From a virus: DNA of 50,903 nucleotides. The notes under the pieces were generated by a model. That model saw nothing but the letters and a program-made list of their open reading frames with translations. It was not told the origin of the DNA and did not search any database. Below, one piece after another: positions 2,111 through 38,567 of this stretch. Each line of letters starts with the position of its first letter. Positions within the stretch are counted from its first letter, which is position 1. The DNA lies in the IMG/VR virus record IMGVR_UViG_3300012920_000002, positions 1 through 50,903 of that record. The stretch is one strand, 5' to 3'. The position numbers and the translations under genes were made by a program.

Positions 2111-2138
2111 ACGGTCCGGGTAATATTGACCGGACCGT
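2111..2138. repeat. 28-bp palindromic element, variant core (intergenic)
   Basis: Arms ACGGTCCGG and CCGGACCGT flank the core GTAATATTGA. The last base of the element is the first base of the terL stop triplet on the minus strand. No T-tract follows on either strand, so it is not a standard intrinsic terminator. Confidence 0.9.
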
Positions 2139-3763
2139 CAGCCCTCTGGGAACAGCTCGTAGGCGATGTCCTCACGGTACATGCGGATGCCATAGCGGAG
2201 GGCGTCGACAGCATGGTCTGGCCCCTTGGTCCCCGCCCGCCCCTTCTCGTTGTACTCGTCCTTCAGCGGCTTCCAGATGAGCCCCTCCATCTCTGCGATC
2301 AGGTTCACGCAGCGGGGGTGGATGAGCAGGACCGGCGCCCCATGCTCATCCAGCTGCAGCAGTTCGTACAGCATCTCCAGGCCGGCGACGACAGAGCCCG
2401 GTCCCTTGGTCGCCGGATCGCACTCCACGCCGCACTCCTCCAGGGTGTACCGGCCCTGCGGGTCCTCGGGGTCGGCGGCGACGGCCTCGGCGGGCTGGTC
2501 CTGCTCCCAGATGCCCTTGATCACCTGGGCATGCTGGCGGAGCCGCATCTGGCGCTCGTAGTGCTCCCAGAGGACGATGATGCGCCTCCCCTTGGGGTGG
2601 GCGACCAGATGGAGGTAGGCGAAGGGGTTGGCGGTGCCGAAGTCGAGGCCACCGAACCGGACCCAGCGGTGGAAGTCCGGCGGGGGCTGCCAGTCGGCGG
2701 GAAGGACGTGGATGGCGCGGTCGAAGATGGGGAAGACAGAGCCCCCCAGGGCACCGAACAGGCCGAACATCTTGGCGTCTCGAACGGCCGGGGAGTTGCG
2801 AGAGAGGCGGGCGTCGAGGGAGGCGGTGTCAACGTGGGGGTTGTCGCGGTAGACGATGCGGGTCTGGCTGTGGCCGGGCGCCTGGTCGACGACGAACTCC
2901 TTGTAGACGTAGGTGCGGCCCTCTGGCGTCATCGTCAGCACCGTACGGCCCGACCGGCCCCGTTCCTCGCCCGTGCGCGCCAGCACCTCCCGGTACACCA
3001 TCTCCTCGTGCTGCTCATCCAGCACCACAAGCTGCACCGCCTCACCCTGGTACTTCCGCCACCCCTGGTCGTTCGCCTTGAAGATGATGCGACCACCCGT
3101 CTCCGGCAGCTCCACCTCTGCGAACGCACCCTTCTGCTCCCACCGAATGAGCAGCGCCGCCGGAGGGAGCAGCTCGGCAAAGGCCCCGCGCTGTCGGGCA
3201 ACGTTCAGCTCGTTGGAGAGGGAGGAGTACCAGACGAGGTTGTCCCGGGCCGGCACGAGGTCCGCGGGCAGGCCGTTGAGCTGGAGGAAGCACTGCACCG
3301 CCCAGTGATCGCCACCGTACAGCCACAGCACCGCCAACAGGCACCCCAGGTACGTCTTCCCCGCACGGTTGGAGCCCGTCACCAGCGTGGCAATCTCCCC
3401 CAGTTCCAGTAGCACCGCACGCTGGCTTGTTCGGCAGTCCGCGTGCTTCGGGTCCGTGTTCGTCTGCCGCTTCCCGCACCGGGGGCACGACCACGCGCCA
3501 CGGCCCAGGCGGTCCATCTCCTGGCCAGGGCAGTCATGGCAGTGGGCCGTCCACAGCCGGATGAACGCGATGGGGTGATCCCGTTGCAGGTCCTGCAGCA
3601 CGCCAGCAAGCTGCTCTGCGGCTGCGATGACCGCCTGCTCCCGAGCGTTCGGCGTCCACCCTTCTGGGCGACTCTTCAGCCATCGTTGTACATGGCGGAG
3701 TCGCTGCTGTGCTGCCCGTAGGGTCTCCGGGGACCACTCGACCACCGAGAGCGGCGCCGTCAT
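2138..3763 (-). CDS. terL: Terminase large subunit (ATPase and nuclease)
   Basis: A 541-residue DNA-packaging motor. Two CxxC pairs (CHDC at 75, CPRC at 93) suggest a zinc knuckle ahead of the ATPase. Walker A is TGSNRAGKT at 129-137 and Walker B LVVLDE at 245-250 with a following acidic residue. The C-terminal RNase-H-like nuclease starts with GGLDFG near 371 and ends with GPDHAVDALRYG near 520. I chose the ATG at 3763 because it makes a 4-nt ATGA overlap with the small subunit stop; the frame stays open further upstream, but only as a shadow of that gene. The stop abuts the palindrome at 2111-2138. Confidence 0.95.
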   Translation of the reverse strand: MTAPLSVVEWSPETLRAAQQRLRHVQRWLKSRPEGWTPNAREQAVIAAAEQLAGVLQDLQRDHPIAFIRLWTAHCHDCPGQEMDRLGRGAWSCPRCGKRQTNTDPKHADCRTSQRAVLLELGEIATLVTGSNRAGKTYLGCLLAVLWLYGGDHWAVQCFLQLNGLPADLVPARDNLVWYSSLSNELNVARQRGAFAELLPPAALLIRWEQKGAFAEVELPETGGRIIFKANDQGWRKYQGEAVQLVVLDEQHEEMVYREVLARTGEERGRSGRTVLTMTPEGRTYVYKEFVVDQAPGHSQTRIVYRDNPHVDTASLDARLSRNSPAVRDAKMFGLFGALGGSVFPIFDRAIHVLPADWQPPPDFHRWVRFGGLDFGTANPFAYLHLVAHPKGRRIIVLWEHYERQMRLRQHAQVIKGIWEQDQPAEAVAADPEDPQGRYTLEECGVECDPATKGPGSVVAGLEMLYELLQLDEHGAPVLLIHPRCVNLIAEMEGLIWKPLKDEYNEKGRAGTKGPDHAVDALRYGIRMYREDIAYELFPEG

Positions 3764-4230
3764 GGCTTGTCCCCAACGGAGTCTCCGAGCAGTCCCAGCG
3801 CCGTATCCAGTGCAGAGAGGCTCACTCCCAGGGCCTCCGGGAGGGTGCCAGAGGCTTCCATACCGCCGGACACCTCCACCTTCGTCCGTCTTGGCAGGGC
3901 ACGGTCCAGCAGGATGCCTGCCGCACGGACCCGAGAACTGGCAATGACCTCCGGGTCCTTCATGATCTCCACCAACGTCTCCACCGCAGTCGGCAGGGCT
4001 GCATCGAGCTTCGAGGACACCTGTCGGAGCCTGCGTTGCTGCTCCGCATCGAGAAGCCCGCGGAAGTGTGGCATCGCGAGCCACTTGCTGACGGTGTCCT
4101 CCCGGACCCCAGCAGCCGCGGCGGCCTCCGGGACGGTACCGCCCTTGACCAGCACCATCAGCCCCTTCTGCTGCTTCCCAGTCAGGCGTCGTCGGGAGGG
4201 ATCTTTCTTGATCGGCTTGGGCACGGGCAT
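3760..4230 (-). CDS. terS: Terminase small subunit
   Basis: A 156-residue DNA-recognition subunit that loads terminase on the packaging site. A helix-turn-helix is visible at about residues 30-60 (EAAAAAGVREDTVSKWL), preceded by a basic N-terminus (PIKKDPSRRRLTGKQQKG). A helical oligomerisation region follows from about 65 to 115. It overlaps terL by 4 nt and starts at the stop of the AlpA-like gene, which fits the usual TerS-TerL order. The call rests on HTH, length and position. Confidence 0.85.
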   Translation of the reverse strand: MPVPKPIKKDPSRRRLTGKQQKGLMVLVKGGTVPEAAAAAGVREDTVSKWLAMPHFRGLLDAEQQRRLRQVSSKLDAALPTAVETLVEIMKDPEVIASSRVRAAGILLDRALPRRTKVEVSGGMEASGTLPEALGVSLSALDTALGLLGDSVGDKP

Positions 4231-4592
4231 CAGTCGCTTCCCCTGAGTTTGAGTGCGTTGACCTGCTCCACCCAGGCGATCACCTCGCTACCGCGCCACC
4301 GATCGCGCTGGGGGGAGAGTCGAAATGTTGGTGGAGGGAGCCCGTTCCGCGTGCCCTCGCTGATCAGGCGATCCAGGCTGGTCCGTGAGACCCCCAGCGC
4401 GATGCGGACCTGTGCGGTGGTCATCGGGCTGCCCATGTGCAGGCGCTGCAGGGCCTCCAGGCAATCCGGCTCCAGCTCCTGGGGAGGATGTTCGGCGACC
4501 TCCTGGGCTGTGCGCACGCCGAGGGCCTGGAGCGCGGCCAGGATGTCAGCGAGCAGGTCGATCACCCGTCGGGCGAACCAGGCGGGATTCAT
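4230..4592 (-). CDS. AlpA-like helix-turn-helix protein
   Basis: A 120-residue protein whose C-terminal half reads like AlpA/MerR-type excisionase-regulators: MTTAQVRIALGVSRTSLDRL at about 56-75, then a strand region ending in RWRGSEVIAWVEQV, matching the family's RWResDV.aWi signature. The N-terminal 50 residues are helical and unassigned. It is translationally coupled to its neighbours on both sides by short overlaps and precedes terS, so it may bind packaging or late-regulatory DNA; this role is inference. Confidence 0.7.
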   Translation of the reverse strand: MNPAWFARRVIDLLADILAALQALGVRTAQEVAEHPPQELEPDCLEALQRLHMGSPMTTAQVRIALGVSRTSLDRLISEGTRNGLPPPTFRLSPQRDRWRGSEVIAWVEQVNALKLRGSD

Positions 4593-5329
4593 GATGCCTC
4601 CCTGGTGGCTTGGGCGACCCGACGCAGCAAGGCCAGGGCGTCCGGGTCATTGAGGAGGGCGTCGGGGGAGGTCATGGCGATGAGGCGCCAGGCCTCCGGG
4701 CCGGCAGATGGGTCCATCGTGGCCAGCCCGATCAGCTTCGGGGACTGACGGCCCCAGCGGGCGGCGGCGTCGGCCCGGGCCTCGGCCCGCAGCAGGACCG
4801 CCTCCGGGTGGGCTTCGTCGATGCCCTCCAGTTCCGGCTCCGGGATGCGCTGCCCATGCACGACAGCGAGCAGATCAAGGACGCGGTCCAGGGCCAGCTC
4901 CAGACGCTGCGCGAGCAGTTGGGGAGAGGCCACCCCGGCCTGTAGTGCATCCCGGAGTCGAGGGATCTCTCGCTGGTGGTCCCGCTGAACCTTCAGCAGG
5001 GTGCCGTGGTTCTCCGTCGCCGCGTTCAGCTCCGCCCGAATCCACCAGGAGGCATAGGCAGAGAAGGGCACCTCCCGAGATGGATCGAACCGCTGTGCCG
5101 CACGAAACGCACCCAGCCGGGCGATCTGCATCAGGTCAGCCAGTTCCTGGCCCGCCCGCCGACTCCGGGAGAGGCTCCTGATCTGGCTGCCCATCACCGA
5201 CTCCACCGTCAGGGCCAGCGCCCAGCAGAGCCGGTCCACCTCAGCAGGAAGGCCCCGCCGGCGAGCCGTTGCCAGCTGGTCGAGCAGCTCACCCTCGGAT
5301 GGGGTGGAGGGGCAGTGGGCGGGGATCAT
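4589..5329 (-). CDS. Sigma-70-like protein (region 2 recognisable)
   Basis: A 246-residue protein with a clear sigma region 2: ELADLMQIARLGAFRAAQRF at about residues 64-83, then FSAYASWWIRAELN near 92, the -10-recognition helix signature. A less conserved region-3-like segment follows (DHQREIPRLRDAL). No convincing region 4 is seen in the C-terminal half, which is helical, so it may be a divergent sigma factor or a regulator derived from one. It resembles the corresponding part of the 620-residue sigma at 21468-23330. It ends the early operon just ahead of the terminase genes, a sensible place for a late-gene switch. Confidence 0.75.
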   Translation of the reverse strand: MIPAHCPSTPSEGELLDQLATARRRGLPAEVDRLCWALALTVESVMGSQIRSLSRSRRAGQELADLMQIARLGAFRAAQRFDPSREVPFSAYASWWIRAELNAATENHGTLLKVQRDHQREIPRLRDALQAGVASPQLLAQRLELALDRVLDLLAVVHGQRIPEPELEGIDEAHPEAVLLRAEARADAAARWGRQSPKLIGLATMDPSAGPEAWRLIAMTSPDALLNDPDALALLRRVAQATREAS

Positions 5330-5580
5330 GGTTGCCCCCCAGCAGAAACCACTCCAGGGGGGAGTTCTGGAAGGGTCTGGTGATCAACAGAGGGGGCGAC
5401 AACGGTCCGGGTAAGATTGACCGGACCGTCCGGCAGCGAGCAGATTGCGGAGACGGTGTCCTGGGTGGTCGTCAGTCGCGCAGAGAAGCGGAACAGCACC
5501 AGGGTGACCGCCAGCGCCCAGAGCACCAGGATCCCGAGCAAGCCGAGGAGCAGGACACCGGACAGGGACTCAACCAGCAT
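5326..5580 (-). CDS. Small membrane protein with palindrome-encoded segment
   Basis: An 84-residue protein with one strong transmembrane segment at about residues 6-32 (LSGVLLLGLLGILVLWALAV) and a short polar tail. The tail contains DGPVNLTRTV, which is the translation of the palindrome at 5402-5429. Support for a real gene is the ATGA overlap with the sigma-like gene downstream and an 11-nt overlap with the gene upstream. No family is recognised; a holin-like or membrane-anchored role cannot be told apart from sequence. Confidence 0.6.
   Translation of the reverse strand: MLVESLSGVLLLGLLGILVLWALAVTLVLFRFSARLTTTQDTVSAICSLPDGPVNLTRTVVAPSVDHQTLPELPPGVVSAGGQP
5402..5429. repeat. 28-bp palindromic element, variant core (intragenic)
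   Basis: Arms ACGGTCCGG and CCGGACCGT flank the core GTAAGATTGA, the same core as the copy at 38238. It lies in the 3' part of the small membrane-protein gene and is read in frame on the minus strand as DGPVNLTRTV. In another frame its core contains a TAA. Confidence 0.92.
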
Positions 5581-5797: not shown

Positions 5798-5821
5798 GGT
5801 GATCTCCAGGAGGGGGTGAGG

Positions 5822-8970: not shown

Positions 8971-9411
8971 TCAGGAGGCGTGCGGGACGGTCCGGCGGAA
9001 TTCCGCCGGACCGTTGTCTGCGGCGTCGGCCGGCAGGGGGCGGGCCGGGCTGATGCGGTTGGCCGGACGGCTGGCCTGGAGGCTGATGGCAGTGATCTCC
9101 TGGAGCCGGGCCCGGATGCGCTCGGCGAGGGCCGGGAGGGTCTCCGCGCGGAGGTGCCCCACGCTGGCCTGGTCACCGGGGGTGATGCTCAGGCGGGCGT
9201 GCCAGCCGTCGTCGGTGGTGCGAACCCGAGCGGCGTAGAAGTCACAGCGACCTGCCGCGCAGATGCGGGTGTCGTCGGTGCCGGGGCGCCAGGTGAAGCC
9301 GGGCAGCAGGATGCAGAGCGCCTCGGCGAGGTCCTGCGCGGTCTCGGGATCCGGGGTGTCAACGGGGACGGGCGCGCAGGGGGTGAGGTGCGCAGTGAGG
9401 GTGTCGGTCAT
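8971..9411 (-). CDS. Hypothetical protein ending in a palindrome-encoded tail
   Basis: A 146-residue protein if started at the ATG at 9411, which follows a CCCCGGAGTACCGC leader; a GTG at 9438 that overlaps the parB-like stop is the alternative. The body is a mixed alpha/beta domain with cysteines near 51 and 56 (numbering from 9411). The last residues, DNGPAEFRRTVPHAS, are encoded by the palindrome at 8987-9014, so the element has become the C-terminal tail. Confidence 0.58.
   Translation of the reverse strand: MTDTLTAHLTPCAPVPVDTPDPETAQDLAEALCILLPGFTWRPGTDDTRICAAGRCDFYAARVRTTDDGWHARLSITPGDQASVGHLRAETLPALAERIRARLQEITAISLQASRPANRISPARPLPADAADNGPAEFRRTVPHAS
8987..9014. repeat. 28-bp palindromic element, exact copy (intragenic, C-terminal tail)
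   Basis: Exact palindrome: half-site ACGGTCCGGCGGAA followed by its reverse complement. On the minus strand it is preceded by GCAGACA and followed by CCCG, and is read in frame as DNGPAEFRRTVP. Confidence 0.97.
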
Positions 9412-9434
9412 GCGGTACTCCGGGGTGGTGGGGT

Positions 9435-10529
9435 TCACGCTGCGGTCCAGCTGTGCGAGAGGGTCAGCTCGATGGCAGTGATCGCCTCGGCGCGGTGGGG
9501 GTGGTCGTGATCTCCGCGGGCCACGGCGAGCAGCACGTCGAGGGCGTTCCGGTCGATGGCGATGTCGCCCCGGCTGGGGAGGCCCCAGAACGGCCCGGGG
9601 GTGGCTGGCTCGGTGGTGGAGGTGGCGGAGGTCGGGGTTGGCACGGTCCGGCGGAATTCCGCCGGACCGTCGTCGGTGCGATCGGGGGGCGCGGTCTGGG
9701 TGAGATCTGCCGGGTCGTCGACGTCGGGCTCGGGAGCGAGGGTGCGGCGCTCTTCGAGGGCCTCTCGTGCTGCCCGGCGTGCGTCGATGGGGGTGGCGGC
9801 GGCCTGGGCGGCCTGGAGGACGGCCCGCTGATCGGCTTCTGGGAGGCGGGTGGTCTGGACCGCCGTGTCCGTGCTCATCAGGCTGTCGCGGTGGGCATCA
9901 GCGAGCCCGTCGACGCCGTGCCGGAGGATCCGCACCGTGTCCTGCACCCCTGACGGCGAGGTCTGGAACTCTGCGGCGACAACATCCCGGGCCCGGCCGG
10001 CAGGTGGGGTGCTGGTGTCGGCGTCGGTGCCGGGTGTGGGGAGGGCATCGCCGGCCCGCTTCCGGTTGGTCTCGGCGGCGGCGGCCTGGCGGCGGCTGGT
10101 GGCGTAGCCGAGGTCCTGCAGCTCCTCGTAGTACACAGCGGCGGCGTGCTTGCGCTGGTTGGCGGTCAGGTGCCGGCGGCTGAGGTTCTTCGCCTTCACC
10201 CAGCGGAGGGGGTGGATGCCCTGCTTGGCGACCTCTCTGAACCAGATGAAGCGGAGGTACTTGTCGGGGTTGCGGGTGGCGTGGCAGGCCAGCCAGCGGT
10301 TCTGGCCATCGAGGAGACGGACCTTCCAGTCGCCGTCGTGCAGCTCAGCGAGCAGGGTCAGGGGCTCCTGCAGGCCGTTGGCCTCGATGCCTTCCTTGAG
10401 CTCGCGCAGGGGCTTCCCTTCCAGCTGGGGGAAGATCTTGCAGTAGCGGTGGAGCTTCAGGTTGCCGGGGATGGGTGGGGGCCAGGTCAGGCCAGCGGCC
10501 CGCTCGGCGGGGGTCAGGGGTGTGGTCAC
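9435..10529 (-). CDS. ParB-like nuclease/partition-domain protein
   Basis: A 364-residue protein with a ParB N-terminal-like domain: IPGNLKLHRYCKIFPQL, then LRELKEGIEANGLQEPLTLL and VRLLDGQNRWLACHAT near residue 70, matching the family's vidGhrRwrA motif. A helical region with a likely HTH (residues about 125-190) follows. Residues near 288-297 (DGPAEFRRTV) are encoded by the palindrome at 9643 and sit in a low-complexity linker before a short C-terminal domain. The start is a GTG at 10529 overlapping the upstream stop. Phage ParB-like proteins may act in partition, transcription or DNA modification; which applies here is open. Confidence 0.75.
   Translation of the reverse strand: MTTPLTPAERAAGLTWPPPIPGNLKLHRYCKIFPQLEGKPLRELKEGIEANGLQEPLTLLAELHDGDWKVRLLDGQNRWLACHATRNPDKYLRFIWFREVAKQGIHPLRWVKAKNLSRRHLTANQRKHAAAVYYEELQDLGYATSRRQAAAAETNRKRAGDALPTPGTDADTSTPPAGRARDVVAAEFQTSPSGVQDTVRILRHGVDGLADAHRDSLMSTDTAVQTTRLPEADQRAVLQAAQAAATPIDARRAAREALEERRTLAPEPDVDDPADLTQTAPPDRTDDGPAEFRRTVPTPTSATSTTEPATPGPFWGLPSRGDIAIDRNALDVLLAVARGDHDHPHRAEAITAIELTLSHSWTAA
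9643..9670. repeat. 28-bp palindromic element, exact copy (in parB-like gene)
   Basis: Exact copy, read in frame on the minus strand as DGPAEFRRTV inside a Pro/Thr/Asp-rich linker of the ParB-like protein. On the minus strand it is preceded by CCGACG. Confidence 0.97.
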
Positions 10530-11368
10530 GGGTTCACCTCAAGGCCGGGCGCCGCGCCGGAGGCGCGTGCAACGGGTGCGGCTTGTACAGGGGCCGCAGG
10601 GTGGTGGGGATGACCGGAGACGAGCGCCCAGGGGTCGGTGGGGGCGGTGTTGGCGGCGGCATCCCAGGAGATCAGCGCTGCGTCGGAGAAGAGCGCGCTG
10701 AGGAGGTGCTGGAGCGGATCCGGGGTCGGGGCAGCGGACCAGCAGGGAGAGGGGTCGTCGTTGAGGGAGAAGGGAGGGTGGGACGGGAGGGGAGGCGTGG
10801 GGAGAGAAGTACTATGTGAGCATCCCTCTCCCGCGTTGTAGCGTCTGCAGATTTCAAGGCGGGCTTTCCTGATTTCTGACAGATCGACGTTTTCGAGGGG
10901 CAGGAGGTGCATCTGAACGGTCCGCGGCGTGTGCCGATCTCCCCGGTCGACCACGTGGAGGTGCCCCCGCTCCTCCAGCTCCAGGACGATGCGATCTGCG
11001 GTCCGGCGGTCGACTCCCCAGCGCAGCGCCCCGTAGCGGCCTGCCCACAGAAACGAGCCGCCCTTCTCCCGGGCATGACGCCAGAACAGGTCGCAGACGG
11101 CGGCGATCTTCCAGGGCATGCGGAACAGGCGCCGGGCCAGGCGCAGCACCACCGGCGCCGCCCGCCGCACCGCATGGTGCAGGCTGCCGGCGAGCCCAGA
11201 GAGACCTGCCAGGAGGGCGGGGGCGGTGGTCGAGGGGCGGGCTGGGACGGTCCGGCGGAATTCCGCCGGACCGTCGTCTGCACATCCCATGGGGGTGCCG
11301 AGCTGGGCGCGGCGCTGGGCGTGCCGGCACCGGAGGGTCTCGTGAAGGCTGGCGAGGGTGCGGATCAT
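10526..11368 (-). CDS. Winged-helix protein, possible replication initiator
   Basis: A 280-residue protein. Residues about 85-150 form a winged-helix pattern (IAAVCDLFWRHAREKGGSF, then RRTADRIVLELEERGHLHVV) as in plasmid and phage replication or regulatory proteins. A serine/proline-rich stretch and a helical tail follow. The N-terminal 45 residues include DDGPAEFRRTVP, encoded by the palindrome at 11247. It lies directly after the primase in the operon, which favours a role at the origin. The call is by fold pattern and context only. Confidence 0.6.
   Translation of the reverse strand: MIRTLASLHETLRCRHAQRRAQLGTPMGCADDGPAEFRRTVPARPSTTAPALLAGLSGLAGSLHHAVRRAAPVVLRLARRLFRMPWKIAAVCDLFWRHAREKGGSFLWAGRYGALRWGVDRRTADRIVLELEERGHLHVVDRGDRHTPRTVQMHLLPLENVDLSEIRKARLEICRRYNAGEGCSHSTSLPTPPLPSHPPFSLNDDPSPCWSAAPTPDPLQHLLSALFSDAALISWDAAANTAPTDPWALVSGHPHHPAAPVQAAPVARASGAAPGLEVNP
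11247..11274. repeat. 28-bp palindromic element, exact copy (near N-terminus of winged-helix gene)
   Basis: Exact copy preceded on the minus strand by GCAGACG and followed by CCCAGC. It is read in frame as DGPAEFRRTV upstream of the winged-helix domain. Confidence 0.97.
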
Positions 11369-12525
11369 GCGGCCCGCCTCCGGTACGCACAGCCGTCCTC
11401 GGGGAGGGCGGAGAGCCGGCCAGCCTGGAGGAGGTCGTTGTCGTCGGGCTGGTCCTCACCGAGGAGCCGGTAGACGGAGACGAAGCGGTTGAGGGTGCGC
11501 TCGATGCGGTCGGCGTACCGCTGGCCGGCGTACTTGCTGGCGGGCCCGTCGCGGTGTCCCCGGAGCAGGATGACGGAGTCCGACGGGATGAGCGCGCCCA
11601 CCTCCTCGGTCCAGGATCCGTTCCAGTAGCCCAGGCAGCCCCACGCCTCGCCCCGGGTGTTCCGGCCCGGGTTGCGGCAGGCCCAGGTCAGCCAGTCCGG
11701 CCCGCCCTCGCTGAGGATGAAGTGGCCGGGCTTCTCGCCCTTGAGCATCTCCCGGGCCGTCGGACAGGCGTAGAAGAGCTTGCTGGCGCTGCCGTAGCCG
11801 CAGGCGGCGGAGGCGATCTTGCTGCCGGGGGCGATGTCGGCGCGGATGTTCCGGGCCCGGACGGTCCACGTCCACTTCCCCGGGCGTCCCGGTCCCCAGG
11901 CCGGCAGGATGAGCCGGTGTCCCGACCAGCGCCAGCGAACACCCATGAACGATGCCCACGGCGGGCAGGGCATGCCCTCTGGGAGTGCACGGGCCAGATC
12001 GCGGGCGGCCACCTGGTGGGGGCTGAGTCCCCTGCCCTTCAGCCAGCCCGAGACCTCGGCGTCCTCGGTGACCGGGATGCAGCTGGCCCAGAAGGCGAGC
12101 AGCTCATCGACCGGGGGGCGGGCGTTGGGGTAGCGGGACGGTCCGGCGGAATTCCGCCGGACCGTCGTCGGCTGCCGTCGGGGGCGTACTGCCGGACGCT
12201 CGCCGGTGTAGATCGCCGCGAAGTCGTGCCAGCCCTCCTTGTCGCCCTTCGCTGGGGCGGGCTTGCCCATGAGGTTCCAGGAGACGAGGTCGAGCTTGTG
12301 GCCACCCTCACCGCAGCGCCAGCACTTCCAGGTGAAGTCGTTGAAGATCGCCGGCCCCTTCGTGCGGTCCTTGCTGCTGCGGTTCTCCTCCCCACAGGCC
12401 GGGCAGGGCCACAGCCGGTTTCCCCGGCGCTCATGGCCGTAGCGGTCCAGCAGCTCCTGCATCGGGGTGTTCCGCAGCGCGTCGAGCCAGCGCCAGCTGT
12501 CCCTCCAGTCCCGGGGCGCGTTCAT
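11365..12525 (-). CDS. DNA primase-like protein (zinc finger plus TOPRIM)
   Basis: A 386-residue protein that likely makes RNA primers for phage replication. A CHC2-type zinc ribbon is at the N-terminus (CPAC at 41-44, CWRC at 68-71). The TOPRIM-like region begins at ILSEGGPDWLTWA near 268, carrying the catalytic glutamate motif EGxxD; the second acidic motif is degenerate (RGHRDG near 325). Between the two domains, residues about 119-131 (TTVRRNSAGPS) come from the palindrome at 12138. The ATG at 12525 overlaps the upstream stop by 4 nt. No helicase domain is attached. Confidence 0.82.
   Translation of the reverse strand: MNAPRDWRDSWRWLDALRNTPMQELLDRYGHERRGNRLWPCPACGEENRSSKDRTKGPAIFNDFTWKCWRCGEGGHKLDLVSWNLMGKPAPAKGDKEGWHDFAAIYTGERPAVRPRRQPTTVRRNSAGPSRYPNARPPVDELLAFWASCIPVTEDAEVSGWLKGRGLSPHQVAARDLARALPEGMPCPPWASFMGVRWRWSGHRLILPAWGPGRPGKWTWTVRARNIRADIAPGSKIASAACGYGSASKLFYACPTAREMLKGEKPGHFILSEGGPDWLTWACRNPGRNTRGEAWGCLGYWNGSWTEEVGALIPSDSVILLRGHRDGPASKYAGQRYADRIERTLNRFVSVYRLLGEDQPDDNDLLQAGRLSALPEDGCAYRRRAA
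12138..12165. repeat. 28-bp palindromic element, exact copy (in primase linker)
   Basis: Exact copy lying between the zinc-finger and TOPRIM domains. It is read in the second frame, TTVRRNSAGPS, not the DGPAEFRRTV frame used in three other genes. Confidence 0.97.
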
Positions 12526-14971: not shown

Positions 14972-16395
14972 GCCGTCTCCGGGGTCCAGGAGGTCAGGAG
15001 CAGCTCCGGGGCGGGCTGCCGGTTGTCGCCGTCGCAGCTCATGCCGCCGGAGCGGGTCAGCGCGGTGGCGTGCCAGTCGTCGCCGTAGATCTCGCGGGTC
15101 AGCGGTCCGTTGGAGCCGGAGATCATCACCAGGGCACCGCGCTGCCGGGCCGCCCGCAGCCCATCCACCAGCACACGGTGGTCAGCAGGCCCGAACCCCG
15201 CTGCGGTGTAGGCCGTGAAGGTGTCCATCCCCTCCAGCAGCGGCAGGTAGGGCGGATCGGCGTAGACGAGATCGCCGGCCTGGGCCTCGAGGAGCGTCGT
15301 GGTGAAGTCGACCGGGGACAGCGAGGCACCCCGCAGTGCGCGGTGGTTCCGCATCAGCAGCGCCTGGCGCTCGGGGTTCAGGACATGCGTACTGGTCCGG
15401 TCCTTCGCCAGCGGCCCGTTGAACCGGCCCTTCTTGTTGACCCGGTAGAGCCCCTGGAAGCAGACGCTGTTCAGGTAGAGGAACCGTGCGGCCTGCTCGC
15501 GCAGCTCGCGACCGGTCATCTCCAGCGGAGAGAAGGGCAGCCGGTCGTTGAAGTTCCGCCGGATCTCCTCGTAGTGCTCGGGGCCGTGGAGCCGGGCATG
15601 CTGATCGAGGTTCGCCAGCAGGTTCTGGGGCGTGCTCTGCAACACCCGCCAGCTGTTGATCAGGGCGTGGCTGGCATCGGCCAGGATGGCGCGGGGCTCG
15701 CCGGTGAGCCGGCCGGCCTCGTGCAGGGCGAAGAAGAAGGCGCCGCCACCAAGGAAGGGAATGATGAGCCGACCCCGCCAGCCCACCGGCAGCAGCCGCA
15801 GCATCGTCGGCACGAGCTGCCGCTTCCCACCCGCCCATCGGAGGTGCGGACCACACGCCAGGGCGCGCTGGGACGGTCCGGCGGAATTCCGCCGGACCGT
15901 TGTCTGCGCCTCTCCGGTGGACGGTCCGGCGGAATTCCGCCGGACCGTCGTCGGGGGCACATCGAGCTGCCAGAGCCGAACGTGAACGCCGGGCAGCTCG
16001 CCGGAGGCGGCGTACCACTTCTCCACGTGGACCGAGGCGATCTCACAGTCGTCGTAGATGATGAGCCCGCTCTCGCCGGGCCCGCCACCGTCGAAGGCGT
16101 CCTCGATGCTCTTGAGGACGTTGTCGGCGTCCGGCTTGACCAGGTGCCGCACCCGGCCGCCCTCGCCGAGATGCTTGGGACGGGGGAACAGGAGCAGACA
16201 GTCGAGCCGCAGCGCGGTGCCCTTGGGCAGGGGGATGGCGAGGCCCTGCTCGCGGGCCGCTGCCTTGAGGATGTGCTGTGCACGAGCCTTCCAGGCCTGG
16301 GTGGCCTTCGGCGTGAAGCGGCCGTTTCGGGTGACTCGGACGCGCTGCTTCGTCTGCGGCTTCTCCGGGATGAACGCGCTGAGGAGATGCCTCAC
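14968..16395 (-). CDS. RusA Holliday-junction resolvase fused to Dam-like adenine methyltransferase
   Basis: One 475-residue frame encodes two enzymes. Residues about 1-145 are RusA-like: PEKPQTKQRVRV, then KPDADNVLKSIEDAF near 88 and IYDDCEI near 110, carrying the metal-binding aspartates. Residues about 180-470 are a class D12 (Dam-type) adenine-N6 methyltransferase: LRWAGGKRQLV near 184, a glycine-rich FLGGGAFFF motif and DPPY near 380. The link between them is two palindromes in tandem, each read as TTVRRNSAGPS. I take the GTG at 16395, which forms a GTGA overlap with the gene upstream. In most phages these enzymes are separate proteins. Confidence 0.88.
   Translation of the reverse strand: MRHLLSAFIPEKPQTKQRVRVTRNGRFTPKATQAWKARAQHILKAAAREQGLAIPLPKGTALRLDCLLLFPRPKHLGEGGRVRHLVKPDADNVLKSIEDAFDGGGPGESGLIIYDDCEIASVHVEKWYAASGELPGVHVRLWQLDVPPTTVRRNSAGPSTGEAQTTVRRNSAGPSQRALACGPHLRWAGGKRQLVPTMLRLLPVGWRGRLIIPFLGGGAFFFALHEAGRLTGEPRAILADASHALINSWRVLQSTPQNLLANLDQHARLHGPEHYEEIRRNFNDRLPFSPLEMTGRELREQAARFLYLNSVCFQGLYRVNKKGRFNGPLAKDRTSTHVLNPERQALLMRNHRALRGASLSPVDFTTTLLEAQAGDLVYADPPYLPLLEGMDTFTAYTAAGFGPADHRVLVDGLRAARQRGALVMISGSNGPLTREIYGDDWHATALTRSGGMSCDGDNRQPAPELLLTSWTPETA
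15873..15900. repeat. 28-bp palindromic element, exact copy (RusA-Dam linker, Dam side)
   Basis: Exact copy, 20 bp from the next one at 15921. It is read as TTVRRNSAGPS, directly before the Dam domain. Confidence 0.97.
15921..15948. repeat. 28-bp palindromic element, exact copy (RusA-Dam linker, RusA side)
   Basis: Exact copy, read as TTVRRNSAGPS directly after the RusA domain. With the copy at 15873 it forms the only tandem pair in the genome; start-to-start distance is 48 bp, so the frame is kept. Confidence 0.97.
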
Positions 16396-21391: not shown

Positions 21392-21471
21392 GCCTCGTCT
21401 TCCAGCTCGCCGCGGGCTTCGTCCTGTGCCTCGTTCTGTGCGCTTTGATGTACGCCGGGCGGCCGCGATGA
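21388..21471 (+). CDS. 27-residue membrane micropeptide
   Basis: A GTG-started frame encoding a single hydrophobic helix (LVFQLAAGFVLCLVLCALM) and a basic end. The start overlaps the upstream stop (GTGA) and the stop overlaps the sigma-factor start (ATGA). Confidence 0.42.
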   Translation: MSLVFQLAAGFVLCLVLCALMYAGRPR

Positions 21472-23330
21472 AGGTCGACCATGCAGGCCAGCGCCGCACG
21501 CTGGCGGAGGCCCTGCAGGCCGAAGAGGACTGTCACGAGCTGCTCACCGCATGGCCGGAGGCTGTGCTGTACCTGGACACGCCCCAAAAGGGCTCGACGG
21601 AGAAGACCCGAGGACCGCGTAGCGAGCGCACCCCGGAGGCCCTGCGTATCGCCGAGGCACTCTGCCAGTCCAGCGAGGCCCGGAAGATGCATCAGGATGC
21701 CCTGACCCTCTGGCGTCGGGCGGAGTCGCTGCGCTGGAGCCTTCTGCCGGATGTTGATCGCCTGATCTGGCGGCAAGCCACCACCATCGCCCAGCTCCCA
21801 CAGGTTCGGTCCGAGGCGGAGGACCTCGTGCAGGAGGGGCGGCTGGGTTTCCTGCGTGCCTGTCGGCGCTTCGACCCCCAGGCCGGAACGAAGCTGCTCA
21901 CCTATGCCAAATGGTGGATCCGGGCTGCGATGACCCGGCACGTTGATACCGCTGGACGAGTCATCCGCCAGCCCAGTGGAATGACCGAGGAAATCCGGCT
22001 GATCGACAAGGCCAGCCGAGAGCTGGTGCGCTGTGGGCTGCCGGTCAACGCTGCGACGCTCTCCGAGGTGACCAAGTTCCTCCCCGAGCGCGTGCAGGCG
22101 CTCCTGGAGTTCCGCCAACCCCTCAGTCTCGACGGTGCCATCGCCGAAGGCGAAGACCGCAGCCTGCTCGACATGTTCGCCGGCCTGGACGCTGACGACC
22201 TGGACCGCGAGGTCGACACGGCCCTTCAGGCAGGGCGGCTGAAGGAGCTGATCGACGGGCTGGATGAGCGCAGCGCCGCGATCGTCGAGTTCCGAGCAGG
22301 GCTCGTCGACGGTGTCGACCACTCCCTGGACGAAGCCGGTGAGCTGTACGGCATCTCCCGCGAACGGGCGCGCCAGATCGAGCGAGCCGCCCACGAACGC
22401 CTCCGCGAACAACTCTCCCAGCCCCGCACCCAGAACCCCCACCACTCCCCGGAGATTGTCATGGATCCCAATGCCCGATGCCCCATCCACCCAGACCGGC
22501 AGGCGACCAATGTCGGCATCTGTCGCGACTGTGAGCGAGCAGTCTCGAAGGCGGCCCGCCGCTACAAGACGCTCGGCAGAGTCCCGCAACCGGGCTGCAT
22601 CGCTGCACGGGCCATCCTCGCGGTCGACCTGGGCGGAAAGCGGCGCGTCTGGTTCGAGGAGGCGAAGACGCTGAAGGAGCTGCTGCAGGCGCAGACGACG
22701 GTCCGGCCAGAATTACCCGGACCGTCCCAGCCGTCTCCTGCTCCCACCCATCAGGACCTCCCCGGCAACGACTGCGACGACACCGACGCAGACGGCGACG
22801 CCTCTGTCGAGGAGGCCGAAAGCGTCGATGCTGTCGCCGCTCTCTGCGGCCCCATGACGACCGCTGAGGAGTCCATCGGGATTTCCTTAGAAAATATACT
22901 CCCGCCAGGAACGACCGAGGAACCCTCCCTTTCCCTGGCTGTTGATGAGGGAGGGGACAACGACTGCGACGACGCCGACGCGGACGGCGACGGCTACACA
23001 GAGCTGCAGCCTCTCCCCCGCGTCCGACTGACAATCCAGATCGAGGCCGCTGCCGCCGAGCTGGCGGCGCTGCAGACCGCCGTTCAGCAGAAGGCTGCCC
23101 AGCTGGAGCGGCTGCAGGACGATCTCCGGCGGGAGACCTTGCGCCAGATCGTCAGCATCATCCCTGGCGCTGTCGCAGCGCAGGAGGTCCTGGCCACGAT
23201 GCTCCCGGCAGACCTTCCTGAGGCAGAGCGGGAGCGACTGCTGGCTGCGTTCGATGCCAGCCGATGGGACGAGACCCTTGAAGCCCTGCGGGATGAGGTC
23301 CAGGCCAGCGCGCAGCGGGGTGCAGCATGA
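21468..23330 (+). CDS. Sigma-70 factor with long C-terminal extension
   Basis: A 620-residue protein. Sigma region 2 is clear (about 112-155: EDLVQEGRLGFLRACRRFDP, then LTYAKWWIRAAMTRHV), as are region 3 (about 160-220) and a region 4 HTH (about 293-315: LYGISRERARQIERAAHERL). It should redirect RNA polymerase to phage promoters. The extension holds a zinc-ribbon-like CP.H...CRDC (about 336-356), a palindrome-derived TTVRPELPGPS (about 410), two aspartate-rich loops (DCDDTDADGD near 432, DCDDADADGDG near 505) resembling calcium-binding motifs, and a coiled coil (about 525-565). The extension is unlike ordinary sigma factors. Confidence 0.85.
   Translation: MKVDHAGQRRTLAEALQAEEDCHELLTAWPEAVLYLDTPQKGSTEKTRGPRSERTPEALRIAEALCQSSEARKMHQDALTLWRRAESLRWSLLPDVDRLIWRQATTIAQLPQVRSEAEDLVQEGRLGFLRACRRFDPQAGTKLLTYAKWWIRAAMTRHVDTAGRVIRQPSGMTEEIRLIDKASRELVRCGLPVNAATLSEVTKFLPERVQALLEFRQPLSLDGAIAEGEDRSLLDMFAGLDADDLDREVDTALQAGRLKELIDGLDERSAAIVEFRAGLVDGVDHSLDEAGELYGISRERARQIERAAHERLREQLSQPRTQNPHHSPEIVMDPNARCPIHPDRQATNVGICRDCERAVSKAARRYKTLGRVPQPGCIAARAILAVDLGGKRRVWFEEAKTLKELLQAQTTVRPELPGPSQPSPAPTHQDLPGNDCDDTDADGDASVEEAESVDAVAALCGPMTTAEESIGISLENILPPGTTEEPSLSLAVDEGGDNDCDDADADGDGYTELQPLPRVRLTIQIEAAAAELAALQTAVQQKAAQLERLQDDLRRETLRQIVSIIPGAVAAQEVLATMLPADLPEAERERLLAAFDASRWDETLEALRDEVQASAQRGAA
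22698..22725. repeat. 28-bp palindromic element, variant core (in sigma gene)
   Basis: Arms ACGGTCCGG and CCGGACCGT flank the core CCAGAATTAC. It is preceded by GCAGACG and followed by CCCAG, the same flanks as the exact copies. It is read on the plus strand as TVRPELPGPS at the junction between the sigma part and the aspartate-rich extension. Confidence 0.92.
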
Positions 23331-27146: not shown

Positions 27147-27646
27147 TCCCCGCCGAAGCCCCCATCAACGTCCACCAGGCCGCTGCGCTCCTCGGTCTTT
27201 CAGCGGATTGGCTCTACCGCAATCCGCCACAGAAGGGCGGGCCGCCCCGCTCCAAGGTCGGCCGCGTCCTGCTCTACTATCCCTCCGACCTCCGCCGCTG
27301 GCTCTACCTCCAGCGCACCACGCCGCCGGGGTGGTCCGAGGCCCCGCTCCCCGCCACCCCCTCCCCTCAACAGGACGACTCCCCGTGTACCTCTACCGAC
27401 ACAAGAAATCCGACCTCTGGTGGTGCGAATTCCGCCGCCGCTACGGCCCCGCCAAAGGAAAGAAGTGCAGACGGTCCACCGGCATCCCCGCCCCCGGTGA
27501 GGGAGCGCGGGGCTACGCTGCGTCTCGTAAGAGAGCCTCCGCCGCCGCCGAACACATCCGCGTCAAGGTCGACGCCGAGGACCTCCTCGCCTCCGAGCGG
27601 GCCGGAAGCACTCCCGCCGCATCTCCGCGGGTTGTACCAGTCCTGA
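27143..27646 (+). CDS. Excisionase-like helix-turn-helix protein
   Basis: A frame of 167 residues whose first 65 form a MerR/AlpA-type domain (INVHQAAALLGLSADWLYRN, then YYPSDLRRWLYLQR). This is the usual excisionase or recombination-directionality fold and fits its place before the integrase. The remaining 100 residues are Pro/Ser-rich and overlap the integrase gene in another frame by about 260 bp. No earlier stop exists, so either the tail is really made or the integrase starts later than I propose. Confidence 0.65.
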   Translation: MIPAEAPINVHQAAALLGLSADWLYRNPPQKGGPPRSKVGRVLLYYPSDLRRWLYLQRTTPPGWSEAPLPATPSPQQDDSPCTSTDTRNPTSGGANSAAATAPPKERSADGPPASPPPVRERGATLRLVREPPPPPNTSASRSTPRTSSPPSGPEALPPHLRGLYQS

Positions 27647-28851
27647 CCCTCAGCGACCTCCGAGACGCTGACGTGCAGCGGGCAAAAGCAAAGGGCGTGA
27701 GTGACCGACAGATCGGGAACCTCCGGGAGCAGTGGGAGAACCACCTCCTCCGGCTCCTCGGCAAGGGTCGAGACGCGCGCACCGTCGACGAGGACCTCCT
27801 CGAAAAGTACGTCGCCACCAGGCGCGGCGAGACGGGGCGGAAAAACGAGCGGGTGCGAGGGCAAACGATCATCCGGGAGAGGCAGGCCCTCTTTCGGGGG
27901 CTCCGGGTGCTGAAACGCCACCTCAAGAAACACGGGGTGGAGTACTCCCTCCCGGAGGCACCGACGATCAACTCCGATCCCCGAGACGCCAAACAGCGCG
28001 GCAAGCTCCACGATCTCGGGGTCCTGGCGCGGTGGCTGGCGGAGCTGGAGGGAGGCGGCCGACACACCGCCGCCGCTCAGGCCCGGATCGCACTGGAGTG
28101 TGGTCTCCGACGTGAGGAGATCGTCCGGTTCACCCTCCGGTGGTTGCAGCCCGGCGAGGCTGACGGGGAGTACTCCCTCCACCTCCCGGAGTGGGCGACC
28201 AAGGATCGCGACGAGAGAACGCTCCCGGTCTCGGAGAAGCTGGCCGGGGTCCTGGTGAACCTCTGGCGCCCGGGCCTCTCCGTCGACGCGCACCTCCTCG
28301 CCGGCAACTACCGACGGAGCTGGCGGAGTGCAGCCCGCGCCATCGGCTACAACCAGACGATCACCCTCCGAGACCTCCGGCACACGTTCGCGACCCTCTC
28401 CCTCCAGCTGGCCGGTGACCTCACCGCCACCCGAGAGGCCCTCGGTCACTCGGAGCTGGAGTCTACCCAGCGGTATCTGAGCGCGACTGAGGCACGGGTG
28501 AGGCGGGCTGGCCTGGCAGTCTCAGAGGCGCTTTCTGCCCACACCGCGCCCACACCGCCGCCGCCCACACCCCGCCCACACCAAACCCCCACCGGCGATA
28601 AGGCTGATGGGGGCTCGGTTTCTGGTAGTCGGGGTGAGAGGACTCGAACCTCCGGCCTCCTGCTCCCGAAGCGGGAAACAATCGACGGGATCGAGGTGGT
28701 ACGCCCGATTTCGCTCTGTCCTGACTGTATCTCATTGTTGAAGTCTGCGGGCCTCTGGGAACCTCTGGCCGCCGCTGGAGTGCAGGCTCGCCCACACCGC
28801 GCCCACACCACCGCCACGCGCTCCAAACTCCTCCGGCTGGTGGGGGAGTGA
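27385..28851 (+). CDS. int: Tyrosine integrase carrying attP in its 3' end
   Basis: A 488-residue tyrosine recombinase from a GTG at 27385. An N-terminal arm-binding-like region (LYRHKKSDLWWCEFRRRYG) is followed by a SAM-like core-binding domain (about 85-190). The catalytic residues are R in CGLRREEI (about 236), K in TKDRDERTLPV (about 270), RDLRHTFAT (about 330, an arginine replacing the usual first histidine), GHS (about 353) and Y in RYLS (about 363). A 105-residue extension after the catalytic part contains attP and all arm-type sites, so integration would change the C-terminus. Myxococcus phage Mx8 is a known precedent. Confidence 0.9.
   Translation: MYLYRHKKSDLWWCEFRRRYGPAKGKKCRRSTGIPAPGEGARGYAASRKRASAAAEHIRVKVDAEDLLASERAGSTPAASPRVVPVLTLSDLRDADVQRAKAKGVSDRQIGNLREQWENHLLRLLGKGRDARTVDEDLLEKYVATRRGETGRKNERVRGQTIIRERQALFRGLRVLKRHLKKHGVEYSLPEAPTINSDPRDAKQRGKLHDLGVLARWLAELEGGGRHTAAAQARIALECGLRREEIVRFTLRWLQPGEADGEYSLHLPEWATKDRDERTLPVSEKLAGVLVNLWRPGLSVDAHLLAGNYRRSWRSAARAIGYNQTITLRDLRHTFATLSLQLAGDLTATREALGHSELESTQRYLSATEARVRRAGLAVSEALSAHTAPTPPPPTPRPHQTPTGDKADGGSVSGSRGERTRTSGLLLPKRETIDGIEVVRPISLCPDCISLLKSAGLWEPLAAAGVQARPHRAHTTATRSKLLRLVGE
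28537..28582. promoter_or_regulatory. attP arm-type integrase sites, left arm (four GCCCACACC)
   Basis: Four direct repeats GCCCACACC start at 28537, 28548, 28563 and 28574, spaced 11, 15 and 11 bp. Two more lie on the other side of the core. The arrangement is typical of arm-type sites bound by the integrase N-terminal domain. Confidence 0.7.
28629..28672 (-). other. attP: attP core: 3' half of a tRNA-Pro(CGG) gene
   Basis: On the minus strand this reads as the 3' half of tRNA-Pro: anticodon loop TTCGGGA (28670-28664), stem, variable loop, T-arm GGAGGTTCGAGTCCTCT (28653-28637) and acceptor strand CACCCCGA. No 5' half is present, so it is not a functional tRNA gene but an attachment core. 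Pairing in the anticodon stem breaks on the 5' side, marking the likely edge of identity with attB. Integration would restore the host tRNA on the integrase side. Confidence 0.85.
28790..28809. promoter_or_regulatory. attP arm-type integrase sites, right arm (two GCCCACACC)
   Basis: Two copies of GCCCACACC start at 28790 and 28801 with the same 11-bp spacing and orientation as on the left arm, about 120 bp right of the core. Confidence 0.65.
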
Positions 28852-28877: not shown

Positions 28878-28905
28878 ACGGTCCGGCGGAATTCCGCCGG
28901 ACCGT
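28878..28905. repeat. 28-bp palindromic element, exact copy (intergenic)
   Basis: Exact copy between the ends of the convergent integrase and HTH genes. Flanks on the minus strand are GCAGACA and CCCAGG, as in the intragenic copies. Confidence 0.97.
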
Positions 28906-35265: not shown

Positions 35266-37326
35266 TCAGCCGATGCAGATGATCTCGCAGTTCGCCTCGC
35301 TGGAGAGGACGATCAGCTCGATGGTGTTGGCATCGACGCTGCGGGTGTCCATCTCCAGATCCACACCGGCTGAGTCGTAGACCTTCACCAGGGGGAACGA
35401 CTCTCCGAGGCCGTGAACCACCTGCAGGGGCACACCAGCCACCAGGCTGATGGTCGCGCGGAACTTGCTCGGCTTTGTGTCGACGTCGGACCGCAGGTCA
35501 TCCAGCTCGGTCTGGACCGCAGGGGCCAGCATCGCGCGCTCGACCTGGCCCGCGCTGATCTGGAAGGTGCCGGTCGCAGCGTCGTAGCTGATGCCGGGGC
35601 CTGCGGAGAGCTCGTTGCGGATGTTGGCGCTGGTCAGGGTGTAGGTGCCTGCCGCCGGGTCGTAGGCGCCCAGGCCAGGAGCAGAGAAGCTGTTGCGGAC
35701 CCAACCCTGGTCACCGGAGATCTCGCCGGTGGCCGCGTTGTAGCTGATGCCGGCGCCGCCGGTGAGCTGGGCACGAACATCCCCGCCGGTCAGGGTGTAG
35801 GTGCCGGCGGTCTCATCGTAGATGCCGAGACCGGGCGCGCTGATCTGGCTGCGGACGTCGGCCTGCGAGAGGGTGTAGACGCCGGTGACGGCGTTGTAGG
35901 TGCCGAGCCCACCGATACCCCAGCGGCTGCGGACCCATGCCTCGTCACCGGAGATGGCGCCGGAGGCCGGGTCGTAGCTGATGCCGGTTCCGGCGCCGAA
36001 GAGGCCACGGATGGCGCCAGCATCGCCGGACATCTCGCCGGTCGCAGCGTCGTAGGCGAGCAGGGCACCCGCGCCGATCTGCTGGCGGCTCCAGGCGGTG
36101 TTGCCGGAGATCTCTCCGGTCGCAGAGTCGTAGTCGATGCCAGCGCCGCCGGAGATCTGGGCGCGGACGTCGGCGCTGGTCAGGTTGTAGGCACCGGAGG
36201 CCGCATCGTAGGCACCGAGGCCGGGGGCGCTGAAGAGGCCGCGGATGGCACCAGCGTCACCGGCCATCTCGCCGGAGGCAGCGTCGTAGGTCAGCAGGGA
36301 GCCGGCCGAGACGCGGCCCCGGACCCAGTCCTGATCGACGGAGAAGGCGCCATCGTTGTAGACCGCGCCGGATCCGGCGGAGAACAGCGCCTTGATGTTC
36401 GCGGCGTTGCCGACGATCTCACCGTTGGCGGGGTTGAAGTCCACCAGGTCGCCAGGGGCGGAGAGCTGGTTGCGGACATCGCTGGCGGTCAGGGTGTAGG
36501 TGCCAGCAGCGGCGTCGTAGGTGCCGAGGTCCGGTGCCGAGAACAGCCCCTTGATGGCGGCCTCGTCAGCGGCCATCACGCCGGTGGTGTTGTCGTAGCT
36601 CATCAGCGCGCCGGCGCTGACCTGCTGGCGGGTCCAGGCCGCGTCACCCGAGATGGCGCCGGTGGCAGCGTTGTAGTTGACGCCGTTGGAGCCGGAGAGC
36701 AGCGCGCGGACGTCCGCCTCGGCCACGCCGAAGACGCCGGAAGCATCGTCGTAGGTGGCGATGCCAGAGGCCGAGAACTGCTGCCGGGCATAGGCCACGT
36801 CAAGCGAGAGCGCGCCAGAGGTGGAATTGTAGACGACGCCGTCGACGCCGGAGAGCAGCGCGCGGATCTGGCTGGCGGTCAGATCCGGCCCGTCCACCAG
36901 AAACCAGTCGGTCTCATCGCCGGCAGTGCCACCGTTGTGCATGAAGAACCGGGTCTGGCCGTCCTCGTGGTCGCGCATGACCAGGACGTCGGACATCTGG
37001 TGATCGCCCGGGACGTAGCCCGCGTCACCGACGAAGGCGGCGAGGTTGGCGAAGCCGGCGCCGGCACCATCGCCGTCGACGTGCAGCCGGGTGATCGCCA
37101 GGGCCTCGATGGAGAGCTGGCGGTTCCGGCCGTCCGGGTCGGCGGTGATGGTCAGGTACGCGGAGCTGTTGGGGTGGACAGAGAGGTGACGCTCATCGAC
37201 ATAGGTCTTGGCCTGCCCCCAGGCGGCGGGCATGTTGTCGAGGATGGCGTCCTGAATGTTGCGGATCGAGCCGGCGCTGCCGCGGAACTCGATGCCAGAG
37301 ACGTACTGCTTGTGGCCTGCGGTCAT
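35266..37326 (-). CDS. Tail fibre protein with about 17 tandem repeats
   Basis: A 686-residue virion protein. The first 165 residues hold a head-proximal domain. Residues about 172-610 consist of some seventeen repeats of roughly 26 residues, with the consensus VRxxLSAxxGIxYDAATGEISGD, a beta-strand pattern found in phage fibre shafts. The last 75 residues are a distinct tip domain. It probably forms a trimeric fibre that binds the host. Its gene and the next two form a unit behind the candidate late promoter at 38152. Confidence 0.8.
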   Translation of the reverse strand: MTAGHKQYVSGIEFRGSAGSIRNIQDAILDNMPAAWGQAKTYVDERHLSVHPNSSAYLTITADPDGRNRQLSIEALAITRLHVDGDGAGAGFANLAAFVGDAGYVPGDHQMSDVLVMRDHEDGQTRFFMHNGGTAGDETDWFLVDGPDLTASQIRALLSGVDGVVYNSTSGALSLDVAYARQQFSASGIATYDDASGVFGVAEADVRALLSGSNGVNYNAATGAISGDAAWTRQQVSAGALMSYDNTTGVMAADEAAIKGLFSAPDLGTYDAAAGTYTLTASDVRNQLSAPGDLVDFNPANGEIVGNAANIKALFSAGSGAVYNDGAFSVDQDWVRGRVSAGSLLTYDAASGEMAGDAGAIRGLFSAPGLGAYDAASGAYNLTSADVRAQISGGAGIDYDSATGEISGNTAWSRQQIGAGALLAYDAATGEMSGDAGAIRGLFGAGTGISYDPASGAISGDEAWVRSRWGIGGLGTYNAVTGVYTLSQADVRSQISAPGLGIYDETAGTYTLTGGDVRAQLTGGAGISYNAATGEISGDQGWVRNSFSAPGLGAYDPAAGTYTLTSANIRNELSAGPGISYDAATGTFQISAGQVERAMLAPAVQTELDDLRSDVDTKPSKFRATISLVAGVPLQVVHGLGESFPLVKVYDSAGVDLEMDTRSVDANTIELIVLSSEANCEIICIG

Positions 37327-37378
37327 GGTGGGGTGTTCTCCAGGTGGGTGGCGGCGGAGACGCTGGCTGAGGCCCGCA

Positions 37379-38120: not shown

Positions 38121-38151
38121 GGGCGGCGGCGGTCTCCTGCAGGACTCATCC

Positions 38152-38213
38152 GAGGAGATAGGCGACCGTTCTGAGGGCCCTGGCCTCCTGGGGCCTGCTG
38201 GGGTCCGCTGGGG
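38152..38213 (-). promoter_or_regulatory. Candidate late promoter region, copy 2
   Basis: Contains GAGGAGATAGGCG (38152-38164) and three CTGGGG at 38188, 38198 and 38208, the same elements as at 2001-2072. The spacing between the two parts is 24 bp here and 34 bp there, a difference of one helical turn. A palindrome with the GTAA core follows at 38238. Confidence 0.5.
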
Positions 38214-38237
38214 CGCGCTCGCGGCAGGGCACAGACG

Positions 38238-38265
38238 ACGGTCCGGGTAAGATTGACCGGACCGT
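38238..38265. repeat. 28-bp palindromic element, variant core (left of cargo genes)
   Basis: Arms ACGGTCCGG and CCGGACCGT flank the core GTAAGATTGA, identical to the copy at 5402. It is preceded by CAGACG. It lies between divergent genes at 38120 and 38288. Confidence 0.95.
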
Positions 38266-38287
38266 TTACCCCCACCCGGAGACCACC

Positions 38288-38449
38288 ATGACCCCCGAAG
38301 AAGAAAAGCGCCTTGCCGAGCTGGAGGAGCGCGTGGAGCAGCAGGACAAGCGGATCAAGAACCTGGAGGCCCACATTGAGGCTCTGATCAAAACGCTGCA
38401 CAACGCGCCCAAGATGATCGAAGATGCCTTCAAGGGTGGGCCCTTCTGA
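38288..38449 (+). CDS. Small coiled-coil protein, 53 residues (cargo gene)
   Basis: A short frame on the opposite strand to the tail genes, with the recurrent CCCGGAGACCACC leader before its ATG. The protein is an almost continuous coiled coil (KRLAELEERVEQQDKRIKNL), similar in style to SlyX-like short coiled coils but not assigned. It is flanked by palindromes at 38238 and 38460. Confidence 0.6.
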   Translation: MTPEEEKRLAELEERVEQQDKRIKNLEAHIEALIKTLHNAPKMIEDAFKGGPF

Positions 38450-38459
38450 GGGTTCCACG

Positions 38460-38487
38460 ACGGTCCGGCGGAATTCCGCCGGACCGT
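38460..38487. repeat. 28-bp palindromic element, exact copy (after coiled-coil gene)
   Basis: Exact copy beginning 11 bp after the stop of the 53-residue gene. Followed by CGTCTG, the reverse complement of the usual 5' flank. Confidence 0.97.
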
Positions 38488-38539
38488 CGTCTGTGCCCAG
38501 CTCGCCACCCCCACCACAATGCGAGCGGCTATGCTCGGG

Positions 38540-38567
38540 ACGCTCCGGGCAACATTACCCGGACCGT
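38540..38567. repeat. 28-bp palindromic element, degenerate copy
   Basis: ACGCTCCGG and CCGGACCGT flank the core GCAACATTAC; one arm base is changed. It lies 9 bp before the start of the lipoprotein gene. Confidence 0.8.

Follow-up and report, generated by a model that had tools for sequence, protein, structure and literature searches.

A dispersed REP/RPE-like palindrome, possibly mobile, with in-frame copies in genes of a tailed phage

Bacterial REPs and the Rickettsia palindromic elements (RPEs) insert in frame and prefer genes of DNA synthesis and repair; many bacterial REPs are located in genes of replication and repair, with flexible linkers as insertion points (PMC3733652). Hairpins with a tetranucleotide at their foot are acted upon by IS200/IS605-type enzymes and by RAYTs (PMC6006769). 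REPs and RPEs have been described in bacterial chromosomes, and the movement of the CGTC type is an open question. The palindrome family described here is carried by a phage. An initial annotation of this DNA had called it unlike any known repeat, which was too strong, since its architecture matches that of REPs and RPEs (PMC3733652): a hairpin of 20–40 bp, a tetranucleotide tag on one side, a short CC(C)AG tail on the other, many copies, and in-frame positions in replication genes.

The window, that is, the whole stretch of DNA analyzed, is a viral record of 50,903 bases with 69% GC (IMGVR_UViG_3300012920_000002). An identical 123-bp direct repeat is present at both of its ends (1-123 and 50781-50903), and the record is for this reason probably a circular or complete assembly of a tailed phage. 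Encoded are portal, terminase and tail tube proteins, an integrase, a RusA-methylase, and primase-like, ParB-like and sigma-factor proteins. A probable tail-fibre gene at 35266-37326 contains repeats of about 78 nt (26 aa). A tRNA search of the phage gave none. The copies of the palindrome, placed relative to genes whose positions come from a codon-usage gene model, and one small ORF between two of them are the following.

2111..2138, minus strand: variant (B-type) copy with centre GTAATATTGA, intergenic, directly past the terminase stop; GACR tag absent.
5402..5429, plus strand: variant (B-type) copy with centre GTAAGATTGA, intergenic, 73 bp upstream of the sigma-like gene g06.
8987..9014, minus strand: exact copy in the C-terminal part of g15 (8971-9438), encoding NGPAEFRRTV.
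9643..9670, minus strand: exact copy in ParB-like g16 (9435-10529), past the conserved domain, encoding DGPAEFRRTV.
9691..9718, minus strand: degenerate copy in g16, encoding DDPADLTQTA, 48 bp (16 codons) from 9643.
11247..11274, minus strand: exact copy in g17 (10526-11368), close to the N-terminus, encoding DGPAEFRRTV.
12138..12165, minus strand: exact copy in primase-like g18 (11365-12525), past the zinc-finger region, encoding TVRRNSAGPS.
15873..15900, minus strand: exact copy in the RusA/D12 methylase linker of g21 (14968-16395), second of a head-to-tail pair with a 48-bp period.
15921..15948, minus strand: exact copy in g21, first of the head-to-tail pair, encoding TVRRNSAGPS.
22698..22725, plus strand: variant copy in the sigma-70 gene g30 (21468-23330), past region 4, encoding TVRPELPGPS.
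28878..28905, minus strand: exact copy, intergenic, 27 bp past the stop of the tyrosine integrase gene (g34, 27385-28851).
38238..38265, plus strand: intergenic B-type variant, forming the left end of the inverted pair around g48.
38288..38449, plus strand: g48, a 53-aa coiled-coil ORF with 58% GC, within the inverted pair.
38460..38487, minus strand: intergenic exact copy, forming the right end of that pair; its flank GGGCACAGACG is almost a repeat of the one at 38238.
38540..38567, minus strand: intergenic variant with a single mismatch in an arm, located upstream of the lipoprotein-like gene g49; GACR tag absent.

All eight exact 28-bp palindromes and all five variants reported in the initial annotation were recovered at the positions given there, and 100 dinucleotide shuffles yielded no copy at three or fewer mismatches. 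The family is real and not the product of chance. An origin by chance or through an assembly artefact has a negligible probability and was refuted: the expectation from shuffles is zero, the flanks are unique at each site, and genes run unbroken across the palindromes. The degenerate copy at 9691 scored 7.2 with a weight matrix, for which 200 simulations gave a 95th percentile of 3.0 and a maximum of 9.1. Rfam contains no match to the palindrome.

The 9-bp arms, ACGGTCCGG and CCGGACCGT, are kept in the variants as well, with one mismatch in 234 arm positions across the thirteen copies (in copy 38540), and it is the 10-nt centre that differs. Two subfamilies were distinguished, A with centre CGGAATTCCG and B with GTAAGATTGA or near; the GCGGAATTCCGC type of centre characterizes the eight identical copies, the other five having GTAAGATTGA or a related centre. 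Among B copies changes affect 1/90 arm positions versus 8/50 centre positions (P = 0.001). The stem is 12–13 bp long in exact copies and 9 bp in variants, and the exact form folds as RNA into a hairpin of −30 kcal/mol (z = −6.3).

The pattern around the palindrome is 5′-(GCA)GAC(A/G) before it and CC(CAG) after it, GAC(A/G) being found at 11 of the 13 copies and the CC of the opposite side at 10. The asymmetry of these flanks, noticed in the initial annotation, is borne out statistically: with the best orientation taken for each copy, 10 nt of flank hold 12.0 bits of information, compared to 5.8 ± 0.6 (maximum 7.5) at random positions. The accompanying claim that the unit is longer than the palindrome is not favoured, since the flanks of the exact copies depart from consensus at 18/96 positions and the core at 0/224. 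This difference is better read as pointing to a target preference or tag than to a part of the freshly copied unit, and the unchanged core suggests that the exact copies were either recently copied or are under selection.

The earlier judgement that the palindromes are not terminators also holds, as the hairpin is flanked by GACR and CC(C)AG and lacks the T-run of an intrinsic terminator. The strong fold, as well as the uniform orientation of the seven copies located within genes, each of them sense to its gene (sign test, P = 0.016), could be accounted for by functional mRNA hairpins that act in processing, pausing or stability and were spread by selection. However, a perfect palindrome folds alike in either sense, the T-run is absent, conservation extends beyond the stem to the exact sequence, and the asymmetric flanks are left unexplained. 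We consider such hairpins unlikely.

Seven of the thirteen copies lie wholly within genes and are read in frame, a property overlooked when the copies were first described, correctly as to position, as dispersed sites. Two are in the gene of the RusA-adenine-methylase fusion, and one each in the genes of the primase-like protein, the ParB-like protein, a sigma factor and two further proteins. Two reading frames are used, three copies encoding (D/N)GPAEFRRTV and four TVRRNSAGPS or its variant TVRPELPGPS. Codon-position GC is equal before and after each copy that has enough flanking sequence; g15 is too short after its copy. Every intragenic copy is in a linker-like or terminal stretch, and the sigma regions of g30 and both Pfam domains of g21 are intact despite the copies. 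In g21 the two copies form the linker between the RusA domain (10-140) and the D12 methylase domain (187-439). From the second copy to the methylase motif WAGGK the frame contains no ATG, GTG or TTG, and for this reason translation of the methylase domain apparently proceeds through both copies. Head-to-tail pairs with the same 48-bp period are present in g21 (15921/15873) and g16 (9691/9643).

With the gene calls of this study, genes are avoided overall, 7 of 13 copies being intragenic versus 86% expected (P = 0.006). The intragenic copies are located in disorder-prone stretches of low hydrophobicity (P = 0.00025 for the disorder score), and hydrophobic content as low as theirs was obtained in none of 20,000 resamplings; tag and tail supply some of the residues counted in these tests, which use the same gene calls. 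In-frame copies in different frames, in unrelated proteins and in linkers, the asymmetric tag, the tandem and inverted pairs and the avoidance of genes are marks of insertion.

Somewhat more likely than not, in our view, the family represents a REP/RPE-like miniature palindrome that is mobile and resides in a phage genome. The unit would be a 28–30-bp hairpin, ACGGTCCGG-N10-CCGGACCGT, inserted just 3′ of a GAC(A/G) tetranucleotide with no recognizable target duplication; the fuller target preference may be GCAGACR before and CCCAG after the insertion point. Because IS200/IS605-type enzymes and RAYTs act on foot-tagged hairpins, single-strand insertion of this type next to the target tetranucleotide is suggested by analogy. 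No Y1 transposase is present in the phage, no transposase was recognized by Pfam scans of part of its genes, and no transposase or RAYT linked to the palindrome was found. Since the phage has no recognized transposase, mobilization would occur in trans, probably by a host enzyme. We infer the insertion itself, the single-strand mechanism and the mobilization in trans. Surviving insertions would be those that keep the reading frame open, run in the sense direction of the gene and lie in linkers or at protein ends, adding at least ten residues to replication and regulatory proteins.

The strongest rival is a binding site, alone or combined with mobility. The palindromes could be dispersed sites, an operator or a parS-like centromere, bound by the ParB-like g16 protein or an HTH regulator, with exactness kept by selection for a dimer on two 9-bp half-sites. 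We consider this reading conceivable, though less probable than mobility. The arms are near-invariant in thirteen copies while the centres vary, and compensatory arm changes are absent. Six copies lie in g15–g21, around and inside the ParB-like gene, which itself holds two, and selection could explain part of the spread; however, six copies within 7 kb do not by themselves amount to significant clustering (P = 0.13). A parS/ParB system has ParA and ParB genes with cognate sites, and here ParB-like g16 alone was found: no gene resembling ParA stood out in the gene list, and Pfam scans of part of the genes gave no ParA hit. The repressor region at 16.0–22.6 kb, next to g22, g24 and g25, has no copies, and a dimer site needs no flank asymmetry. 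The same peptides in two frames, a single sense, the linker positions and the 48-bp tandem pairs argue for insertion and against site-by-site evolution. The linear prophage-plasmid N15 has dispersed centromere sites. Like the present phage, it combines several inverted repeats distributed over the genome with a ParB-like protein, whereas here no ParA-like gene was noticed, copies are in frame in linkers, and the flank is asymmetric.

Against mobility alone, the invariant core and the better preservation of arms than centres could mean selection on a binding site. Mobility and binding can both be true together, and the alternatives offered by the initial annotation, a mobile palindrome, a binding site or both, are still the right set. 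A combined reading, which we put forward as speculative and somewhat less probable than binding, is that the phage spread a private palindrome, its own recognition sequence, by in-frame insertion through the replication genes. Each of these proteins would then carry the peptide, and the genome an array of sites for a phage protein; one candidate is the ParB-like g16, with two copies in its gene.

The 53-aa ORF g48 (58% GC) is enclosed by copies 38238 and 38460, which are inverted relative to each other and have extended flanks, and is a possible passenger of this pair. The region 38121-38987 has two plus-strand genes of lower GC (the 53-aa coiled coil, 58%; the 136-aa lipoprotein-like gene, 65%) inside a minus-strand late operon. 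Three palindromes fall within this low-GC block, which is possibly a moron. An inverted pair around a small low-GC ORF would also suit dif- or lox-like core sites (28 bp, 9–11-bp arms) at which a tyrosine recombinase carries out cassette exchange or phage integration, as would the 28-bp length, the inverted arms with a variable centre, and the tyrosine integrase gene with an exact copy 27 bp past its stop. However, the centres of the eight exact copies are self-complementary and give no directionality, most copies are within replication genes and not at cassette borders, and recombination between direct copies would delete genes. Recombinase sites are thus improbable, marginally more so than mRNA hairpins.

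Searches of IMG/VR and INPHARED did not reveal the 28-bp family: its core had no match in either, and with the pattern relaxed to tag plus arm one near-match appeared among viral sequences (L142). INPHARED contains no close DNA relative of the phage, protein relatives are only distant, and IMG/VR scans with terminase, portal, capsid and RusA-methylase revealed at most one relative, at 27% identity. With this as the best relative, no empty-site allele was found in INPHARED or IMG/VR. The sampled genomes belong to five phyla, those reached through loci already found; none was a host genome with many copies, and none had more than one match to the arm pattern. Among the matches listed, those in Streptomyces were rejected: each genome has a single conserved locus, whose centre and flanks differ from those of the family. 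There, in at least dozens of species (L006-L124), a single conserved site, CCAGTAGACACC-ACGGTCCGG-N10-CCGGACCGT-GACGTATCTCGC, has loop centres that vary and are often self-complementary; it looks like a conserved hairpin at one locus. Viral L005/G007 was rejected, as its hairpins are ordinary ones of differing sequence. Viral contigs L131, L132 and L133 share GAGCGTTTTCCGGCGGAATTCCGCCGG but differ in their flanks and probably carry an unrelated element; the shared sequence is possibly an insertion-sequence end. The sigma-70 gene g30 contains, at 22766-22995, two 38-nt repeats that are 92% alike and code for NDCDDxDADGD, which we take to be a motif of Myxococcota and similar bacteria. From these stretches and the lipoprotein-like gene, the host may, as a guess, be a member of the Myxococcota.

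A literature search did not find the core sequence in print, nor dispersed palindromic repeats within phage coding sequence, and we did not find an earlier report of REP/RPE-like repeats in a phage. A 50-kb phage with at least thirteen copies, two subfamilies and seven in-frame insertions would offer a compact, testable system for studying how such elements move and how proteins tolerate in-frame palindromes. The finding also raises the possibility that such elements spread between hosts with phages as their carriers.

By its sequence the palindrome is REP/RPE-like, but its differing tag (GACR) places it formally outside the GTAG and CGTC families of REPs. CGTC-tagged REPs, which include Rickettsia RPE-4/RPE-6 and Neisseria dRS3, likewise are hairpins with a 9-bp stem and an A-T first pair, have a one-sided tetranucleotide tag and a CC(A) tail on the 3′ side, are found in frame within genes, mainly those for DNA synthesis and repair, and have no dedicated transposase found (PMC3733652). 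A hairpin of 20–40 bp in dispersed copies is present here too (28 bp, 13–14 copies). Where those REPs have CGTC (or TGTC/CCTC) 5′ and a CCA tail 3′, the phage has a similar tail, CC(C)AG, with the tag GAC(A/G) on the CC-tail strand; CGTC/TGTC is seen near the palindrome solely at the other end and on the other strand. In a control CGTC repeat with at least 40 matches in an alphaproteobacterial plasmid, CGTC stands before and CCAG after the hairpin, compared to GACR and CC(C)AG in the phage. The CGTC hairpins have an 8–9-bp stem with A/T at the first two positions and a 4–5-nt loop, whereas in the phage the second stem pair is C-G and the loop is 2–4 or 10 nt (10 nt with the 9-bp stem). The phage palindrome further differs in being phage-borne and in its head-to-tail pairs, which are negligible in CGTC families. 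GTAG REPs and REPINs with their RAYT share the 5′ tetranucleotide at the hairpin foot and the inverted pairs, but the phage palindrome has GACR in place of GTAG/GTGG, and a RAYT (Y1_Tnp) is absent from the phage. Rickettsia palindromic elements (RPE-1 and others) likewise are in frame in functional proteins, with one element in several genes; correspondingly, seven phage copies are in frame in coding genes, in two frames, with a continuous frame signal where testable. Elements of the RPE-1 type are about 100–150 bp long (PMC2229807), whereas the phage element is GC-rich and 28–41 bp long.
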